Of a DNA stretch of 64,000 nucleotides, positions 7,307-50,367 are shown in pieces. Both the position numbers and the translations under genes were made by a program. Position 1 is the stretch's first letter. Each line of letters starts with the position of its first letter. Location: assembly GCA_012295275.1 (NCBI GenBank), contig CM022671.1, positions 25,344,822 to 25,408,821 of the forward strand. The letters run 5' to 3'. Below the pieces are notes generated by a model that saw nothing but the letters and a program-made list of their open reading frames with translations, did not search any database and was not told the DNA's origin. Source of the stretch: Chrysomallon squamiferum (lineage: Eukaryota > Mollusca > Gastropoda > Neomphalida > Peltospiridae).

Positions 7307-8124
7307 CTGTGTGTTTTTCTGAATTAAATACATATAGCTGTCTATATACAAACTCCTTGTCATAGTTGGGTTATGTTTACTGTAATGATTTGTAGGCTCC
7401 ACTTGTAAGTTCCCGACCTGGTACGCTTACTATTCTTTTTGTCGCTTCACGCCGGTAAAAGACACGCTATTTGTATAACTGTTAAGAAATCGCTCTAAGT
7501 GAATTCATTCAGGTGAACAACAGCTAATCAAGGTCGTTTTCTTTTCTTTCTTTCTTTCTGTTTTTATTTTTCTTACATTTTCTTTTATTTTATTTTATTT
7601 TTCTTACTTTTTCTTTTATTTTTTTATTTTATTTTATTTATTTATTTATTTATTTTTTTTTTTTTTTTGCTTGTTGCTTTTTTTTTTTTCACTTTACAGA
7701 AAGAATGTGTATTATTTATGTCATTAATTTTTTTTTTTGTACGTCCCTGACCTGGATTGTGGTTGTTGTATTAACAAACTGTTGAATATCAGGTACATAA
7801 TGCTGCTGATCCAAACTGTGGAAGATTTGTTACTTAAACTGTTAACTGAATTATTAGATTTTAGTCCCGATGGTGTTCTACTGTTACCAACTTTAAGTAG
7901 GATAAAATATAAACGTGTGTGTGTGTGAGTGTATTAATGCATGCATTTATGTGTTTGTATGTATGTACGTATATGTACGAATGTGTGTAATTATATATTT
8001 ATGCGTGCATATATGTGTAAGACGTATGCGTATTTATGTATGTATGTATGTACGTATATGTACGAATGTGTGTAATTATGTATTTATGTGTGCATATATA
8101 TGTGTAAGATGTAAATAAAAAAAA

Positions 8125-11214: not shown

Positions 11215-11820
11215 TAAGTGGCTCTATCCGCATCAAATTTACAAACGAAACAGATAAACAACAAACAATTTAAAAGAAAAAAAAAGTTAAAATAATGCAC
11301 TGAATTACAAGGTTTAATGTATGACTGATAATTATTATCATCACCATCATTTTCTTCTTCTTACATTTTCAACCTTAGGATCGAAAAGCAAATAATAGTA
11401 TAATTAAATTAAATATTTTGAAAAATGAAAATTTCATTGAAGATACAGATATCTCGATATATATTGGTTTCATATTTTTTTCTGATTTTTTGGTTTATTT
11501 TTGGCTTCGTGTTTATTCATTAGTTTTATACGTGTAAGCATATTAATAACAGTAAAATCAATAAAAATGCGATTCAAATTTTAAATTTTAATTATAGAAT
11601 ATTGTGCAGTGCTACTAACAAATTGAATTTTTTCATTTCAAACACAAATAAAATACATTTCTGAATGAAAAATATCCCATTGATTTTGTTCTTTTTATTC
11701 GCATATTAATAAGGTACAAACGAATAGCAACAATAATACAAAAACTAACCAACCAAACAAGAAGTATCGTAGCTTAGTTTGCTGAAATGAATACGTTAAT
11801 ATTTTAATGTGTGTTTGTGT

Positions 11821-11872
11821 GTATGTATGTATGTATGTATGTATGTATGTATGTATGCATGTATGTATGTAT
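11821..11872. repeat. (ATGT)n microsatellite
   Basis: Tandem GTAT/ATGT tetranucleotide units with a single interruption near 11858. Confidence 0.95.
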
Positions 11873-12109
11873 GAATATTGCAATATATAATATGTCCTTT
11901 AAGATCTAATATCTTTACAGGTAAAGATTTTTATTTATCTATTTTAGATTACCACCTTTACTGTTCAACTATTCTACACAACTATACCGATGGTTAAAAT
12001 AATGCAGCAATTATTGGTTTCTGATTGAAAAAAAATATATCTTTCACATTTATCTTTATATACATAATTTTTTTTTCACCTTGAAATTACTTTTAATATG
12101 CATTAAAAT

Positions 12110-39279: not shown

Positions 39280-42200
39280 TTGTAACTATTAATTTAGTTT
39301 GGCTTTTACTGCAGTAAAATGTTTTAAGACTTCAGTTTTGTTTTAATTACAAATATTATATATAAAGAAGAATGACAAATAAAAATTCCTGTATTTTAAA
39401 CCTTTTGTTCTGATAAATAATTATTATTAACTGCTAATGTTTATATAATGAATCAGCTGATTCTGTAAAAAATTTTAATATAAAATTAATACACCATTCA
39501 CACTATTTTATTTAATTTTATTTTTTGATGATTATTTTAATTACAGTTTTTGATAATAAAAGAATCTTACAGAGAGGATAAGATATAATTTTTATATAGG
39601 TGTAAACATATTTTTTTGTTTTAAAAGAAAAAATTTCAACAAAAGTGATATATAATATTAATAATGTTTGTTAAAAGACTGATGGTGAACCATCATCTGA
39701 AGAAGACATGGACAAACTCTGCAAATATATTTATGCTAAGGACAGTACTGACCGACTGAGAACCCGTGCCATTCTGTGTCACATTTACCATCATGCACTG
39801 CACGATCGCTGGTTCCAGGCTCGGGACCTTATGTTGATGTCACATCTACAGGACTCAATTCAGCATTCAGACGTACCAACTCAGGTTGGTGTTTTGAATC
39901 ATAATCAATTTGTTTAATGTTTGTTTCATCTCTGTTTATATTATAAAATAAAAATCAGATATTTTTTTTTTTTAAATTTAAACTTTGTTGAAAATTAAAA
40001 TTACTAATTGTGGTTGAAAAAAAAATAAAATAAAATAAACATGAAAAAGTAAGTTTTTAGTCTTATTTGTTCTCAGTACTAAGACTCCAAAAATGTATAA
40101 ACTGTAATCTTCTGAACATATTTTCTAATTTGAATCTGCATGTAAAAAGTAAGACGACGGTAATCTGTATGTTAGAAATAAAATAAAGATATTCTATATG
40201 ATGTTCAAGTTTTTGTTACATTGACACTGTTTTCAGATAATGTACAACAGAACGCTGGTACAGTTGGGTTTGTGTGCGTTCCGCCAGGGAATGATTCGCG
40301 ACGCACACAATGCCCTCGTTGACATACAGAGCAGCAACAGAGCTAAGGAGCTGCTTGCTCAGGTAAAATTTTGTATTTTTATCATCCTCTTTATAAGAAA
40401 TGGTTTTAGAAAATCAGTCAAAAGTGCTTTTTACACTTTTTATTATTAAAAGAAGCTCTTATTGGCATTACACTTTTATTGCTCTTTTTTGTGTTTTTAA
40501 AAGAAACATTTTTTTAAAGGTATATTTAACAATTCTTGGCAGGATTATTTATCACAGAGGAATTAATTATCATCACAAAAATTATAATGAAACAAAATAA
40601 GTTTTTACCATCATGCCCTTATGATTACAAGATTACTTGTGATTTTTTTTCATAATCCAGTGACAACATTCAGATACATAAAGAATTTTTTTTCTCATGT
40701 TTATTTGCTTGTAGAACAATTTGATATTTAATATTAAAACTTGTAACAATTAAAAATTATTTTTTATATTACAATATATGAAACAAAATCTTATCTTTTT
40801 CATTCAGGGCCTACTGCCACAGAGACAACATGAAAGAACCCCAGAACAGGAAAAAATTGAAAAACGTAGACTATTTCCTTTCCACAAACACATAAACCTT
40901 GAACTGCTGGAGTGTGTGTATCTTGTCTCTGCAATGCTGCTCGAGATTCCATACATGGCAGGTAAAATCAGCTGTTAGACAACCCAAAATACTCATTGTA
41001 ACACATGTTTATAGTATCATACACTTCATTTAGCAACTTCATCTCTAATTTGTCTTTATTCTTTATGCATACCAGTAGACCCAATATGGTGACTTGTACC
41101 AAATCTGGGGGGAAAGTGTATGCAACATAGTTTTGATGCAGGTTGAATTTAATCTGTGTCTGCCAATATGTTATGGCAGATGTGTTTATTCACTGCTTAC
41201 ATAACTTTATTTAAACAAAAGCCTTTAGTCCATACCAGGAAATATATTTTTGTTGATCCAGTTAAACAAAAGATTTAATTACAACTCTTTGCATCCAGCA
41301 TTAAGACTGTAAGTATTCTAGGGACCAGTTTATTCAATTTCTGTCATTCAAGGCAGGTTTTAGGAAGGTAAGTACTCTGTATAATCTGAAATTTAATTAC
41401 TAAATGTAATATCTTTACAGATCTTTTTATCTTTTCTGAGTTTTTTTTTTATCTTTGCATAATATATTTCAATGTATGGTAATTAATCATATTTAGTTTT
41501 TACTTTGCATACCAGTAGACCCAAAATGGTATACTTCATTATATTTTGGAGGGAAAGTGTGTGCAATATCATAGATGCATTTGAATCAAATCTGTACAAA
41601 CTAATATATAGTTTATTACATTTGAATCACTGATGACAACTCTTGCTTATTTCTGAACCATAAGACGGCTATTTTTCTGATTTTATTAATTTCTGACTTT
41701 TAAACAGGTAAGTTCTATGTTTCACACATTTAACTACTTTTTTGCTTTAGTTCCAGTAAATGGAGCTAGTTTCAGGTAATTCATTAAATGATAATGTGGT
41801 TACAAATTACTATATCACTGAATTGTATCTGGTTCTTTGACACAGTTTGTAAAATCTTTCATATTCAGTTTGGTTTTCCTTAATGCATACTTGTAGACCC
41901 AGTATTGTATTCTCTATATACTACTTCTGGGGGGAAAGTGTATGCAATATAATCCATGCAGATGGTTGTAAATTGTATCTGTCTGTTTATCATGACAAAT
42001 ATATTGATTCACTGCTGACAGTTCTTTTCCTAAATTACATCATTTATTCATAACTCAGTTATTTTTAATTATTTCAATTTACTTTTGTTAAAATAAACTA
42101 ATATATTTTCTACAAATATCTGGCCTTTATTTAAATGAATTATTTAGTTATATTGTTAAATTGTGCACATCCAGAACTCATTTTGCTGATCTTGTTGCAG

Positions 42201-45200
42201 TAGTTATAACAGTACAGTAATGGCAACCTGACAGATTTACAAAAAATATTACTTAGATGTAAAAAAAATGTTTAGGGTTAACTTGGCTTTTATTCAGTTT
42301 TAATTCCTAATGACTGCATATCTGTAGACCCAGAATGGTTCATACTACCATATTTGGGGGGAAAGTATATGCAATATTATAAATGCTCTGAAATCAAAAT
42401 TGTATTTGCTTTTGCTGTAATGCTAATACAGTATCTAACAGCTAACAGATTATTTTCCTTATAAAGTAACATTTTATAAATCTATAGTTCCTTTGAGAAT
42501 CCAATTTATTTTTGTTTAATTATTCTGTTTTCAAATTGAAATGTTCAGATTCTTTAAAAGTGACTTTTCAATATCAGTGATTAATTATTATATATTTACA
42601 ATGGATTTTTTATTATTATTATTATTATTTTTTTATTATTACCATTGTTTTATTAATTTCTTACACCTAACATCATTAATGTTCATTTTATTGTTTATTT
42701 TAAAAAGATAGAGAGAAATACTGAAAGTGTTGTGATTGTCCATTTTAGCTCATGAACTTGACATTCGACGTCGAATGATCAGCAAGAACTTCCATCACGT
42801 GATGAAAATGAGTGACAGACAGACTCTGACAGGTCCCTCCAGAGAGCATGAGGGAGCACGTAGTTTCCGCTTCCAAGGCAATGAAGATGGGAGACTGGAA
42901 AGCCTGCAAAAACTTCATCATCAATGAAAAGATGAATGCAAAGGTGATTTTGTATTTTAGGGTGTCTACAGACAGTAATAAAAAATTCCTCTTGTTAAAC
43001 TTTGAAAAAAAAACTCTTATTAAACTTTGAAAAAACCCATACATTTATGTGTATAATTGTGAAAAAACAGACATTTTTAGATATCTTGATAGATTTTTTA
43101 ATAGGAAGTATTTTAACACTTGATATTCCATTCATATGTTTGGCTTGTGTTTGTGTGTCTATGTAGATCTGTAATCACAATTTTAAAGTTGTTTCCTTTC
43201 TCATAAGAAAAGACCCAAATGTACATTTCTGTCATCTTAATTTGACAGATTGTTTCCTGATGCAGTTGCAGTGATTTAGCATTTTCCTAACTATAGATCT
43301 TACTTTTGCAGGTATGGGATCTGTTTTACCAGAAGGACAAGGTGCGAGATATGATAGTAAACAAGATACAGGAGGAGAGTTTGAGGACATACCTGTTTAC
43401 ATACAGCAGTGTTTACGACTCACTCATCATGGATCACCTCGCTGAAATGTTTGAACTGGACAAGTCTGTCGTCCACTCCATCATCAGCAAGATGATCATC
43501 AATGAAGAGCTGATGGTAAAGTCTGAGAAATAATTCTGTCAAAATCTTGTCTCTGAATTTAATTTTAAAAATGTGACTGATGATCATAACCTGTATTATA
43601 GATCAGTATATGAATCGTGATGTCATTGAAGAGCTGATGGTAAAATGTAAGAAATAATCATCATGAAAACGCCTTTCTGAATTTAATTTTAAAAATGTGA
43701 TTTCATAAATAAACTATTTTGATATGATAGTTTAAATTTCAGTCTCAGGTAGGTAATTACATTTTATATAATCTCCAATTTTTATAAAACATTCAGAATG
43801 AATTATAATAATAATAAGAATAACAGCAGTAACAACAACCAAATTAAATTTCATCATCTACAGCAGATCAACTTTGTAATTATTTTACTTGATGTACTGA
43901 TTTAAAAGAGATTTTATTACAATTACATTATGTGAATGTACTGATTTAAAAGAGGTTTTATAACAATTACATTATGTCAATGTACTGATTTAACACGGAA
44001 TGAGATAGAATGAATGTGTGGATGATTGCAGGCCTCGCTAGACCAGCCTACCCAGACAGTGAACATGCACAGGACAGAGCCAAGTCGACTGCAGTCCCTG
44101 GCTCTGCAGTTAGCAGAGAAAGTGTCCACTCTGGTGGAGAATAATGAACGCATCATGGAGATAAAACAGGGAAACTATTATTTCCCAAAACAAGTAAGTC
44201 TTTCTTCTTGGTTTTTGTTCCATTTTTTTTTTTTTTTTAATTTTTTTAAATGATGTATGTAGCTTCTGCAGTTAAGAAAAAATTACTTTAAAAAAAGTTG
44301 TGGGAAAAAAAAAAAAAATAATTTTTGAAAAAAGTTGGATTGGAAAAAGATGTTTTGAAAAAAAGTTTTAAATAAAGTTTCAGTAGAATGAATAAAATTG
44401 ATAATATTGCTGATTATTTCAAACAACAGTTGCATGGGTTGATGTTTATTGTCTTTTTGTAGTTTACATGATTTCACCCCTTTGTTTAACAATCTTTTTT
44501 ATTTTTTAATAGTTTATCAACTTTTTTTTTTTTTTTTTAATGATTTTAAACAACTAACCTTTTTTGCTTTTAGAAGTTTTGTAGTGTGCTTTGTACTTAC
44601 ATTTTTAACTGTTTATTTTTTGTTCCCTTTGACAACATAATAACATAATAAAATTTCACTGGTGACCTTAGTAATGAAAAGCTTGTTATGCATTGTTTAG
44701 AATCTGCACTTCCATTACTGTCATATATAGATAATTTTAAAAAAATTAAAAATATATAACATTAAACAATAAAACATACAAAAGGAGACTTTATTACACC
44801 ATACAAATCAATCAACATTGATAATACAAATGTAATTCGCAATATTGTAAACTTTAAATTTCAAAGGTTTGATGGTTCTCTCTTTTAAAAAGCTTAATAC
44901 CTTACTGAATTTGAGGAATTTATTCACTAAAGAAATTTCTTTAATAAGTAAAATTCTTTTCTGGAAAGATTCTTAATAAAAATATTAATAAAGAATGTCA
45001 GGCTGTTTTAATTTTACTGGTTTTATTTGGCCAGACGTGATCAAATGCATCTGTCATAGAACTAATTAATGCAGAAAAATGCCAAAACCACAGTTAGTTT
45101 CTATTTGGAAACTATTGCTGTGAAAACACTGCAGAACTCACCAAACAGTTTTGAAAATAATGGAATGAAAATTTTCCAAATGTAAATACGTGGGGAAAAA

Positions 45201-47749: not shown

Positions 47750-50367
47750 GCCCCTCAGATCGTGGAGATCAAGGAAGACAAGGTGGTTGGAGTAAGTATC
47801 TAATAAATTCTGCCTTCGAAATGAACAGCAAACAATCTGCAAATCAAATTTTTAATATTAAAGTTGCAAAAAAGTCCACTTCAAAATAACAGTTTCTTAC
47901 CATAAGTTTCAGATTTCAATAAAAACCAAATCAGAGCAATAATTATGATAGCTAAAAACAACAGCAACCAAAAAAAAAAAAAAATGGTTGGGAATGTAAT
48001 TAAAAAAAAAAAAAAAAAAAAAAAAATCCCTAGCAAAAAAAAAAATTGCAATACAAAAAGATGGTTGAGATAGCTGGGGGAAAATGCTCACAGAATTTTA
48101 AATATGCAAATATTACATATCTAAAATATTGATTGAAAGCTGTGTTTGCTGCTTATTTTGAAAGCCATCATTGTATTATTCTTTAGTTATTATTTTATAA
48201 TTTTTTGTTTGTTTTGTTTAGTTTTCTTCTTGTTTTGTTTTTTTTGTGTTTTTTTGTGGTTTGTTTTGTTACTGTACAGAATTTGAACAGACTGGTCATT
48301 AAGATGTATTTTTTCTCTCCCTGTCTTCACCCTGTTTTTTTATTATTAAGAAGAAATTCTCCTGCACCATTATGGAAACAAACTTTCTCTTGATTGCACA
48401 TAAAATTTCTGGATTTGTCTATTCACTTGGCCCACTGGTGTTAATTTTAAACCATTTCTTTGTTTAGATCGAGGAGAGGGGAGACAAGGGGGCTGGAGTA
48501 AGTATCACAGAGGAGAACATGCATCTTTTATTTGGTGGATTTTTAGTAAATTCTGCTTATATATGTCAGTTTGACAAGACTTGAATTTTCTTTTCTGTGT
48601 TGTGACAGTTTTTGCATGATTATTGCAGGATAAATAATTGTACGCCTTGTAAGATACCTAATATCCAGTTTTATACATTTTCTATTGCAATGACTTTGTT
48701 TGATAAATGATATGTTGATCTCTGATTTTGCAATGCAAAAGTCCAGTTTACTTTCACATATATTTTATTTAAGTTGATCTTTCGGCATACTCATCTTCAT
48801 CATCTGATGGTGATCATGTTTTGTCTGTGTTCATGTTATTCACTAGAGTTTTGTATGTATTTTTATTGTGGCTGTTGTAACACAGTGGCAGTTAGTGTTG
48901 TATTCAGCTTTACGACAAAATAATGCTCAGGTAACCATAATGCTTTTGAAACTTGTCTTCATAAACTGGTGTCACAATTATGATGGCGGCTATGCTTTTT
49001 TTAATTTATTTTATTTTTCAGTGTTGCACCTTTCATATTTTGCAAACATTTTAAGATCATTTAAAGTGCCATTGGTAGGATGGGTCTTGCTGTCAATGAC
49101 CAAATCGTTTTTCCTTCGCCCACCATTTAGACATTTTACATCTGCAGATTAATTTATCCATATAGAAATGATTATATAATAACAAATCCTCTCCAGCATC
49201 AGCATAAGAGAAAAAAATGGACACATCCAAGAAATAAAGCTGCCATATTAGATTCATGTGCTAACTGTAGCTAAAACTTTGAAAGGAGTAATCACTGAAT
49301 AATGTTTAAAAATGTCCCAATATTAATATATTAATATTGAGGCATCATTAAACATTATTCAGTTGATTGCTCATTTCAAAGTTTTGGCTACAGTTAGTAC
49401 ATGAATCTAATATGGCAGCTATTTGGCATGTTAAATTATTGTGAATTTATTGATGGCATATAAGATTGACCAGGTTTCATTTAACAGTGTTTGCCCATTG
49501 GGTCCTAATTTTAAACCATTTCTTTTAGATCGTGGAGAGGGCAGACAAGGGGGATGGAGTAAGTATAAAGACAGTGAAATCTGTTTTATAACTGTTCATA
49601 AATAATAATGTTTGATTGTTTTGCAAGTTACATTTTCACCTATTTTTGTAAGATTTGTTAAAATGTCCTTTGTCCAGATAAGAAAATGAAGGCAGAATGG
49701 AAAGTATGTAGTTTTTTTTTTTTTTTGGTTCCCCATTTGTTGTTGTATGCATTTCCATGATCATTTGCATTGGTCATTGATTTTAGAAACTGGGTGGATA
49801 GACAGATGTTTCTTATTTTGCATAATAATAACTCTTTATTCTTCAGGTTTGATGTATTGTTTTGAAATTCAGTTTATTTGACTGACATGTTTATTTTCAG
49901 ATCGGGACAGAGATCAGGATAGATGGAGCCAGAATCAGGGTTGGGGTAGGTACCTTATCGAATTAACAGTGATAAGTCTTTTTATTATTCATTTGTAAAA
50001 TTTAAAGTGTTAAAATTTTTGTTTCTTTAATAAAATGAAGTAAAACTTAGTTTAAAATAAAATGCAAAGGCTCTCTGTGATGACTGTTAGTTCAGTTTAA
50101 AAGAAGTAAATAAATGATATATATAATGATATATATTATTTGTATTTGGAATAAATCGGCACAAATTTGGATATATCATGTTTTCACTGGTTCTTCATGG
50201 CACTGTTTGTTTCTATTAGTTTTTACCTTTACATGGTTTACTGCCATCTGTTAAAAATAACTGAAAAATATTGTCCTTTAATTATTAAAGAATATTCAAA
50301 TTTATTATTTTTATTTATGTTTACAGGGCGACGAGGAAACAGGGACAACAGACAGAGGAATTACTGA
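33509..50367 (+). CDS. EIF3C: Eukaryotic translation initiation factor 3 subunit C, 24 coding exons
   Basis: Core PCI-domain subunit of eIF3, which binds the 40S subunit and organises the 43S preinitiation complex in the cytosol. Exons: 33509-33600, 33761-33826, 34138-34214, 34539-34651, 35015-35266, 35734-35864, 36234-36369, 36563-36825, 37195-37291, 37751-37863, 38382-38505, 39179-39211, 39678-39884, 40237-40362, 40808-40961, 42749-42943, 43312-43515, 44032-44193, 47257-47287, 47759-47791, 48468-48497, 49529-49558, 49901-49945, 50327-50367. The start [20 protein letters not shown] matches the family. Acidic and Lys-rich linkers are followed by [46 protein letters not shown] and the PCI/winged-helix part ([30 protein letters not shown]). 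The total is 2755 nt, which is 917 codons plus stop plus one extra base in exon 16. The RG-rich C terminus is built of micro-exons. Confidence 0.97.
36424..36454. repeat. (AC)n microsatellite in an EIF3C intron
   Basis: About 15 uninterrupted AC units shortly after a G run in the intron following coding exon 7. Confidence 0.95.
39227..39281. repeat. (TTTA)n / (TTA)n microsatellite in an EIF3C intron
   Basis: TTTA units pass into TTA units 16 bp after the donor of the 33-nt coding exon 12. Confidence 0.9.
41064..41204 (+). ncRNA. Putative intronic H/ACA box snoRNA, copy 1
   Basis: First hairpin closed by TGCATAC (41066-41072) with GTATGCA (41118-41124), enclosing left pocket CAGTAGA, upper stem CCCA/TGGG and right pocket GGAAAGT. 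The hinge after it (ACATAG) is one base off the H-box consensus ANANNA. The second hairpin is closed by GCAG (near 41138) with CTGC (near 41193), continues TGAAT/ATTCA, and has an inner stem TCTGCCA/TGGCAGA (about 41159-41180). ACA is at 41199-41201, two bases after the stem. A length near 140 nt, two hairpins and intronic location in a translation gene fit H/ACA snoRNAs, which guide pseudouridylation with dyskerin. The target is not identified. Confidence 0.7.
41504..41641 (+). ncRNA. Putative intronic H/ACA box snoRNA, copy 2
   Basis: Closing stem TGCATAC (41506-41512) with GTGTGCA (41559-41565), where one A-U pair has become a G-U wobble, so pairing is kept. The left pocket CAGTAGA and right pocket GGGAAAGT are conserved. 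The H box ATATCA follows directly. The second hairpin contains an inner stem AAACTA/TAGTTT (about 41598-41614). A closing CAT (near 41577) with ATG (41633-41635) stands just before ACA (41636-41638). The second hairpin has diverged from the other copies more than the first. Confidence 0.68.
41882..42023 (+). ncRNA. Putative intronic H/ACA box snoRNA, copy 3
   Basis: Closing stem TGCATAC (41884-41890) with GTATGCA (41940-41946). The pocket strands TTGTAGA and GGAAAGT are conserved. The H box ATATAA follows directly. The second hairpin is closed by GCAG (near 41958) with CTGC (near 42012), followed by TG and ACA (42018-42020). The block ATTCACTGC before the ACA is shared with copy 1. Confidence 0.68.
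42313..42450 (+). ncRNA. Putative intronic H/ACA box snoRNA, copy 4
   Basis: Closing stem TGCATAT (42315-42321) with ATATGCA (42367-42373). Relative to the other copies both partners changed (C-G to T-A), a true compensatory substitution. The upper stem is the best formed of the four: CCCA/TGGG plus AATGGT against ACCAT with a TCATACT loop. The pocket strands CTGTAGA and GGAAAGT are conserved. The H box ATATTA follows. The second hairpin is closed by GCT (near 42383) with AGC (near 42440-42442), then TA and ACA (42445-42447). Confidence 0.7.
42749..42943 (+). CDS. EIF3C: EIF3C coding exon 16, carrying a one-base frameshift
   Basis: The exon enters in the frame reading [20 protein letters not shown] up to LTGPS, then continues in the next frame as [19 protein letters not shown] through NEKMNAK. 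The family reads L[11 protein letters not shown] across this point, so exactly one extra base lies in the stretch CCCTCCAGAG (about 42834-42844). Both flanking parts are strongly conserved, both splice sites are normal, and the rest of the gene is intact. An assembly or sequencing indel is the likeliest explanation. A real mutant allele cannot be excluded. Confidence 0.85.
43503..43700 (+). repeat. Partial duplication of the end of EIF3C exon 17 with its donor
   Basis: The segment at 43503-43576 (last codons of exon 17, donor GTAAAG and about 60 bp of intron) is repeated at 43627-43700 with roughly 80% identity, including GAAGAGCTGATGGTAAA and CTGAATTTAATTTTAAAAATGTGA. The repeated exon-like part extends upstream to about 43603 (ATCAG...), where an AG also sits, but reading on in the gene's frame meets TGA almost at once. 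It is therefore a degenerate pseudo-exon within the intron. Confidence 0.8.
43893..43993. repeat. 44-bp tandem repeat, 2.3 copies
   Basis: Units start TGTACTGATTTAA at 43893, 43937 and 43981 (partial). The first two are nearly identical. It is intronic, just upstream of EIF3C coding exon 18. Confidence 0.9.
44194..47256 (+). other. Large EIF3C intron before the RG-rich micro-exons
   Basis: A 3.1 kb intron, AT-rich, with T runs near 44226-44239 and 44522-44538 and an (AT)n run near 47029-47044. No exon is needed here for the reading frame if the acceptor at 47255-47256 is used. The short ORF at 45292-45504 (minus) has no recognisable similarity. I see no convincing RNA gene. Confidence 0.5.
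47257..49945 (+). repeat. Tandemly duplicated RG-rich micro-exons of EIF3C
   Basis: Exons 47759-47791, 48468-48497 and 49529-49558 are near-copies. Each starts ATCG(T/A)GGAGA, ends GG(A/C/T)TGGA|GTAAGTAT, has phase 1 at both ends and a length divisible by three, so any can be skipped or added without a frameshift. They encode [19 protein letters not shown] and RGEGRQGGW, joined by Asn. The intron ends before the second and third copies are also alike (TAATTTTAAACCATTTCTT...TTTAG), showing that exon plus flank was duplicated. The preceding exon (47257-47287, [10 protein letters not shown]) and the next (49901-49945, [15 protein letters not shown]) share the WN/WG joint and may be older relatives. 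Confidence 0.85.
49232..49424. mobile_element. Foldback element, near-perfect 190-bp palindrome
   Basis: The two halves are inverted copies about 90 bp long. The left arm starts AAATAaAGCTGCCATATTAG, the right arm ends CTAATATGGCAGCTATTT, and further matching blocks include ACTTTGAAA/TTTCAAAGT and CTGAATAATGTTTAA/TTAAACATTATTCAG. The centre, AATATTAATATATTAATATT (49319-49338), is itself palindromic. There is no coding capacity. A foldback MITE is the best label, but no clean target duplication is visible. It lies in the intron between two duplicated EIF3C micro-exons, and an RNA copy would form a long hairpin. Confidence 0.8.

Follow-up and report, generated by a model that had tools for sequence, protein, structure and literature searches.

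What are the four related elements that share one intron of the gene EIF3C in this 64-kb stretch of Chrysomallon squamiferum DNA (called 'the window' below; all positions refer to it), and what could four such elements in a single animal intron be doing? Judged from their sequence, they are very probably tandem paralogues of one H/ACA small nucleolar RNA (snoRNA), a guide of the ACA58/snR9 type for a single pseudouridine of 28S ribosomal RNA (rRNA). The evidence comes from the anatomy of the units, their family likeness, the predicted target and the way in which the copies have diverged from each other.

A repeat search identifies four copies in register, all on the + strand, 136 to 140 nucleotides (nt) in length and with starts spaced by 440, 378 and 431 nt (Table 1). 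Each has the same order of parts: a lower stem, a 5' guide arm ending in GTAGA, an upper stem opening with CCC, a 3' guide arm (GGGAAAGT), a hinge, a predicted second hairpin and an ACA. The closing lower stem has the form TGCATA(C/T)...(G/A)TATGCA, with the variant GTGTGCA in copy 2, and the two pocket strands, GTAGA and GGAAAGT, are kept in all four copies. H/ACA guides place their pocket about 14 to 16 nt before each box. Here the distance from pocket to hinge, measured by eye, is 15 nt in every copy and that from pocket to ACA is 14, 15, 14 and 14 nt in copies 1 to 4, in keeping with H/ACA box spacing; the 3' ends given for the copies are putative. The original prediction, made from the sequence alone, had described four diverged tandem units with these starts, this closing stem, these pocket strands and an ANANNA hinge in three of the four (copies 2 to 4), and all of these features can be seen in the sequence and the alignment. 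Its further proposal, that the units are four H/ACA paralogues within one EIF3C intron, agrees with the Rfam matches, the match of guide to target, the box spacing and the gene model. The family, SNORA58 (ACA58), had escaped it.

With Rfam at gathering scores, nothing is matched anywhere in the window. If a permissive threshold is used, the SNORA58 model (RF00418) matches all four copies on the right strand and in register, with copy 3 scoring highest and copy 4 lowest (Table 1). The E-values are 8.7e-6 to 2.2e-3 when calculated over 2.3 kb and 2.4e-4 to 0.062 when calculated over the 64-kb window. The remaining five Rfam matches over the 2.3 kb have E-values of at least 2.1. A scan of the whole window at E-values up to 1 gives 12 matches, namely the four copies and eight microRNA models under their gathering scores, and no other snoRNA family. 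Together with the rRNA site common to the copies, these E-values argue that the units are not chance resemblances. Because the scores lie under the RF00418 gathering score, we call the units SNORA58-like.

The likely target was sought by scoring every U in three contigs that carry eukaryotic 28S rRNA (L004 to L006), with the SNORA58 site read in L004 and L005. These 28S sequences are eukaryotic contaminants of bacterial metagenome-assembled genomes and are foreign to the snail. For the 5' pocket of all four copies, the top-ranked U in each of the three contigs is the SNORA58 28S site, CACUGUCCC-U-N-UCUAC, which we take to be U3823 of human 28S and position 2340 in yeast. In each contig the best site reads CCACTGTCCC[T-A/G]TCTAC, and the same site is obtained with the SNORA58 consensus arms. 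When L004 was shuffled (mononucleotide shuffles), the target score was equalled in 1, 0, 0 and 6 of 200 cases for copies 1 to 4, and in 0 for SNORA58; copies 1 and 2 were given identical guide arms, although an A is bulged at the pocket of copy 2, so that three distinct tests remain. The exact 28S pattern has no match in the snail's own assembly and none in the viral contigs. A counterpart is described in chicken, where the 5' hairpin of GGgACA6, from intron 14 of UBAP2L, is predicted to guide 28S-3333; a table in PMC2653536 equates this RNA with yeast snR9 and human ACA58.

Targets of their own were also sought for the 3' hairpins, and no site both recurs and beats shuffled sequence. All three contigs give copy 1 one and the same best site, CATGAA[UG]GAUUAACG, whose score is equalled by 29 of 200 shuffles. 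The score of the best site for copy 3 in L004 is equalled by 2 of 200; this site is absent from the other two contigs. For copies 2 and 4, 138 to 182 of 200 shuffles equal the best score.

Identity between copies is 70 to 80% in the 5' hairpin, 45 to 68% in the 3' hairpin and 59 to 68% over the whole unit, and all six pairs of copies agree completely in the 3' guide arm. With this arm unchanged and the 3' hairpins diverging, the copies appear redundant for a single site (for dosage or as back-up) rather than four different guides. The sequence between them had been predicted not to be conserved, and the flanks of different copies indeed give no notable alignment once bases that were counted twice are set aside; the best, between the downstream flanks of copies 3 and 4, spans 21 nt at an E-value of 0.006. 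This pattern suggests old tandem duplications, with the 5' guide probably held by selection. A model built from the four copies finds no further copy in the window with an E-value better than 0.55.

A number of observations weigh against the identification of four ACA58/snR9-type guides. All four RF00418 scores are far under the gathering score of 75 bits, which leaves the units outside formal membership of the family, and the match of copy 4 is limited to the 5' hairpin region. The hinge of copy 1 departs by eye from ANANNA, and the second closing stem of copy 2 (CAT/ATG) has three base pairs. In addition, all four copies carry an A where the SNORA58 3' arm has a C (AAAGTG, or AAAGTA in copy 4, versus ACAGTG); this would produce an A-G mismatch with 28S if the 28S of the snail is standard. 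For the pocket of chicken GGgACA6, PMC2653536 predicts 18S-120 and 28S-1612 as well. The host also differs: SNORA58 is described in UBAP2L, MRPL3 and NDC1 and traced to the amniote ancestor (PMC3511168), and EIF3C is homologous to none of these known hosts. This last point is weak evidence against the assignment because the same paper shows SNORA58 moving between hosts.

Folding gives a mixed result. Excised alone, the 5' hairpin with its pocket folds as expected in all four copies and the 3' hairpin is H/ACA-like in copies 2 and 3, not in copies 1 and 4. In the energy minima of whole copies, an H/ACA 3' hairpin forms in copy 2 only; the 3' half folds differently in copies 1 and 3, and in copy 4 the whole unit takes a different fold. 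For copy 3, the centroid structure is H/ACA-like. When folding was steered towards the H/ACA shape (pairs allowed, not forced, with copy 2 given GCAT/CTGA and not CAT/ATG), the structures were 4.3 to 9.8 kcal/mol less stable than the free minimum, and even so copies 2 and 4 did not form their lower 3' stem. Folding z-scores are -1.92, -1.70, -0.85 and -3.09 for copies 1 to 4; they are mostly not strong, and that of copy 4 belongs to its non-H/ACA fold.

Covariation adds to these difficulties. In a four-way alignment (copy 4 cut within its ACA, copy 2 one column out of register near the 3' guide), 91.6% of the cells of a 21-pair structure can pair, versus 18.5 to 67.9% with the partners slid, a control that is biased in favour of the structure because this was drawn from the same four sequences. 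Changes on both sides are found in 3 of the 21 pairs, a number equalled by 58 of 500 shuffles, and the covariation score is equalled by 54 of 500. If the 3' strands are permuted among copies, no arrangement pairs better than the native one, which shares the top score (2 of 24 arrangements). The compensatory stem changes of the original prediction do exist and are thinner than it stated; four sequences are too few to prove the structure by covariation alone.

Some copies could be pseudogenes. The non-canonical hinge of copy 1, the three-pair lower 3' stem of copy 2 and the 3' hairpin of copy 4, unmatched by the Rfam model, would all suit a locus where the guide function lies with one or two copies and the rest are snoRNA pseudogenes in decay after tandem duplication. 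Decay should strike the guide too, however, and GGGAAAGT and GTAGA are kept in every copy at the overall identity given above, as is a box spacing of 14 to 15 nt while the flanks have diverged; we regard this explanation as unlikely. The presence of four same-strand copies within one intron might also suggest a dispersed or satellite repeat that merely resembles an H/ACA RNA, a possibility that the original prediction had itself raised. A DNA search of the snail's own genome (404.6 Mb in 22 contigs) with copy 1 gave three matches, copies 1, 3 and 2, all in this intron; the search missed copy 4, equally distant copies elsewhere could escape likewise, and in a search of this type a lack of matches does not show rarity. 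Within the reach of this search the dispersed repeat is rejected. As the units also have an Rfam family and complementarity to rRNA, and their spacers are not repeated, a repeat of this type is extremely improbable.

According to the favoured reading, an ACA58/snR9-class guide in an EIF3C intron would have been tandemly duplicated to four copies. On expression of the host gene, dyskerin-type H/ACA proteins would bind each copy, either after splicing or co-transcriptionally, to form a ribonucleoprotein particle, and the flanks would be trimmed. Each RNA would then guide, via its 5' hairpin, the conversion of one uridine presumed to lie at the corresponding site of the snail's own 28S. Animal snoRNAs are described as maturing by splicing, debranching and trimming to the bound proteins, with mostly one snoRNA per intron (PMC11028025, PMC1821038). 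Because of this, the inner copies 2 and 3 would have to be freed by an endonuclease cut or by spliceosomal subdivision of the intron, or else be kept in a longer RNA.

Such a longer RNA might be the main or an additional product, capped by copies 1 and 4 and bearing four H/ACA particles in the manner of small nucleolar long noncoding RNAs (sno-lncRNAs). Trimming of this sort can turn an intron with two snoRNAs into a sno-lncRNA, the H/ACA sno-lncRNA SLERT being an example (PMC11028025), yet the clusters found in introns of rice and Drosophila are described as genes for snoRNAs (PMC2780460), and a capped RNA of this kind is very unlikely here. It is also unlikely that the intron serves as a multi-guide precursor that gets round the limit of one snoRNA per intron in its own way. 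In that case four H/ACA particles would form on the excised intron, the strong 5' splice sites that separate copy 1 from copy 2 and copy 2 from copy 3 would help to cut or subdivide it, and the guide change common to all four copies would mirror a change in the 28S of the lineage.

The 5' splice sites in question are two strong motifs, AGGTAAGT (Table 1), scored against a table derived from the donors of EIF3C itself. AGGTAAGT occurs four times on the + strand of the window: twice in the snoRNA intron between copies, once at an EIF3C exon end (34652) and once probably near a 14-3-3 exon end. When the intron was shuffled 4,000 times, two or more occurrences arose in 2 cases, for a motif that was picked after it had been seen. 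A further strong 5' splice-site motif, at 41776, has no closely matching 3' splice site. Recursive splicing or micro-exons that would give each copy its own intron were considered and are not claimed, since 3' splice sites of the usual strength are lacking closely before the motifs (the best before 41368 score 4.3 to 4.4 bits and none before 41708 reaches 4). One of usual strength (8.5 bits) does occur at 41421, 287 nt before 41708, and the resulting exon would include copy 2. The strongest donor in the interval from copy 3 to copy 4, at 42200, scores 5.2 bits. Among the junctions used in the gene model, 21 of 22 score 7.4 to 16.5 and one scores 3.0; they were chosen by rule near the ends of tblastn alignments and some may be off.

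The host gene was identified as EIF3C from Pfam matches on its exons (eIF-3c_N on the exon preceding the host intron and PCI on the second exon following it). Its model is based on tblastn with EIF3C of Gigantopelta aegis, for which 25 aligned pieces are listed; the exon before the intron ends with ...EIPYMA and that after it begins with AHELDIRRR. The closest protein relatives are those of G. aegis (88% identity over 82% of the query for EIF3C and 85% over 80% for RPL6), and the source organism was taken as a gastropod on these grounds. The exon following the intron (42749-42943) shows a one-base frame change near 42836 relative to the Gigantopelta protein, most likely an assembly indel. At the C-terminus of EIF3C, RG(D/E)xGRQGGW repeats are encoded by separate, nearly alike mini-exons (47758-47796, 48467-48502 and 49528-49578), each bearing a donor with GGA before the junction and GTAAGTAT after it; this repetitive tail looks like the product of exon-by-exon duplication. 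Elsewhere in the window, Rfam matches to mir-297 and mir-3149 under the gathering score (7909-8102 and 11819-11875) fall among repetitive reading frames and are probably simple-repeat artefacts.

Table 1. Host intron, SNORA58-like copies (ends inferred) and 5' splice-site-like motifs between copies
Feature	Position	Strand	Parts	Evidence
EIF3C host intron	40962..42748	+		1,787 nt; tblastn of Gigantopelta EIF3C, splice sites scored
Copy 1, SNORA58-like H/ACA RNA	41066..41204	+	5' hairpin 41066-41124; non-canonical hinge ACATAG; ACA 41199-41201	RF00418, 39.6 bits
Strong motif AGGTAAGT resembling a 5' splice site, between copies 1 and 2	41366..41373	+		11.6 bits
Copy 2, SNORA58-like H/ACA RNA	41506..41641	+	5' hairpin 41506-41565; hinge ATATCA; ACA 41636-41638	RF00418, 35.5 bits
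Strong motif AGGTAAGT resembling a 5' splice site, between copies 2 and 3	41706..41713	+		12.8 bits
Copy 3, SNORA58-like H/ACA RNA	41884..42023	+	5' hairpin 41884-41946; hinge ATATAA; ACA 42018-42020	RF00418, 41.2 bits
Copy 4, SNORA58-like H/ACA RNA	42315..42450	+	5' hairpin 42315-42373; hinge ATATTA; ACA 42445-42447	RF00418, 31.1 bits, 42314-42402 only; 3' hairpin without match to the Rfam model

Neither the kind of RNA nor its likely target nor intronic clustering is new. In rice and Drosophila, clustered snoRNA genes reportedly share one intron. PMC2780460, citing Huang (2005) and Liang (2002), describes intronic snoRNA clusters first from rice and later from Drosophila, and clusters are named in fly lola, Arpc2 and dom (PMC13228274). 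The view that several paralogues in one intron are unusual thus holds for animals in general, and the arrangement is not new in kind. The snail intron resembles these clusters in its grouping of snoRNA genes and differs in being a mollusc locus whose four members are diverged paralogues of a single H/ACA guide. In the mfl (Nop60b) gene of Drosophila, several isoforms of one snoRNA likewise arose by duplication within one host gene; these are of the C/D box type with one gene per intron (PMC1821038), in contrast to four H/ACA units in a single intron here. The tandem genes that share an intron in Tribolium encode RNase P RNA, not a snoRNA, and there are two of them. SLERT and other sno-lncRNAs resemble the snail locus in that at least two H/ACA snoRNAs occupy an intron (PMC11028025), the snail case being known from DNA. 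A literature search, with no query aimed at EIF3C itself, found no paper describing this locus.

The nearest relative remains SNORA58/ACA58/snR9, with which the snail units share a predicted two-hairpin layout with an ACA, a 5' guide of the form GTAGA ... GGGA-AGTG, the same predicted 28S uridine and an intronic position in a protein gene. They differ in their scores, in the one guide base changed in all copies, in their EIF3C host and in the presence of four copies per intron, and they come from a gastropod, whereas PMC3511168 places the origin of SNORA58 in the amniote ancestor. A SNORA58-type guide in a mollusc, and in a new host gene, would extend the amniote range given in that paper. The intron offers a natural four-in-one example in which to study the release of inner H/ACA RNAs in animals. 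Finally, the 28S of the snail itself offers a check on the guide change common to the four paralogues: if this 28S reads CACUUUCCC, guide and target would have changed together, and if it reads CACUGUCCC, the mismatch would be tolerated.

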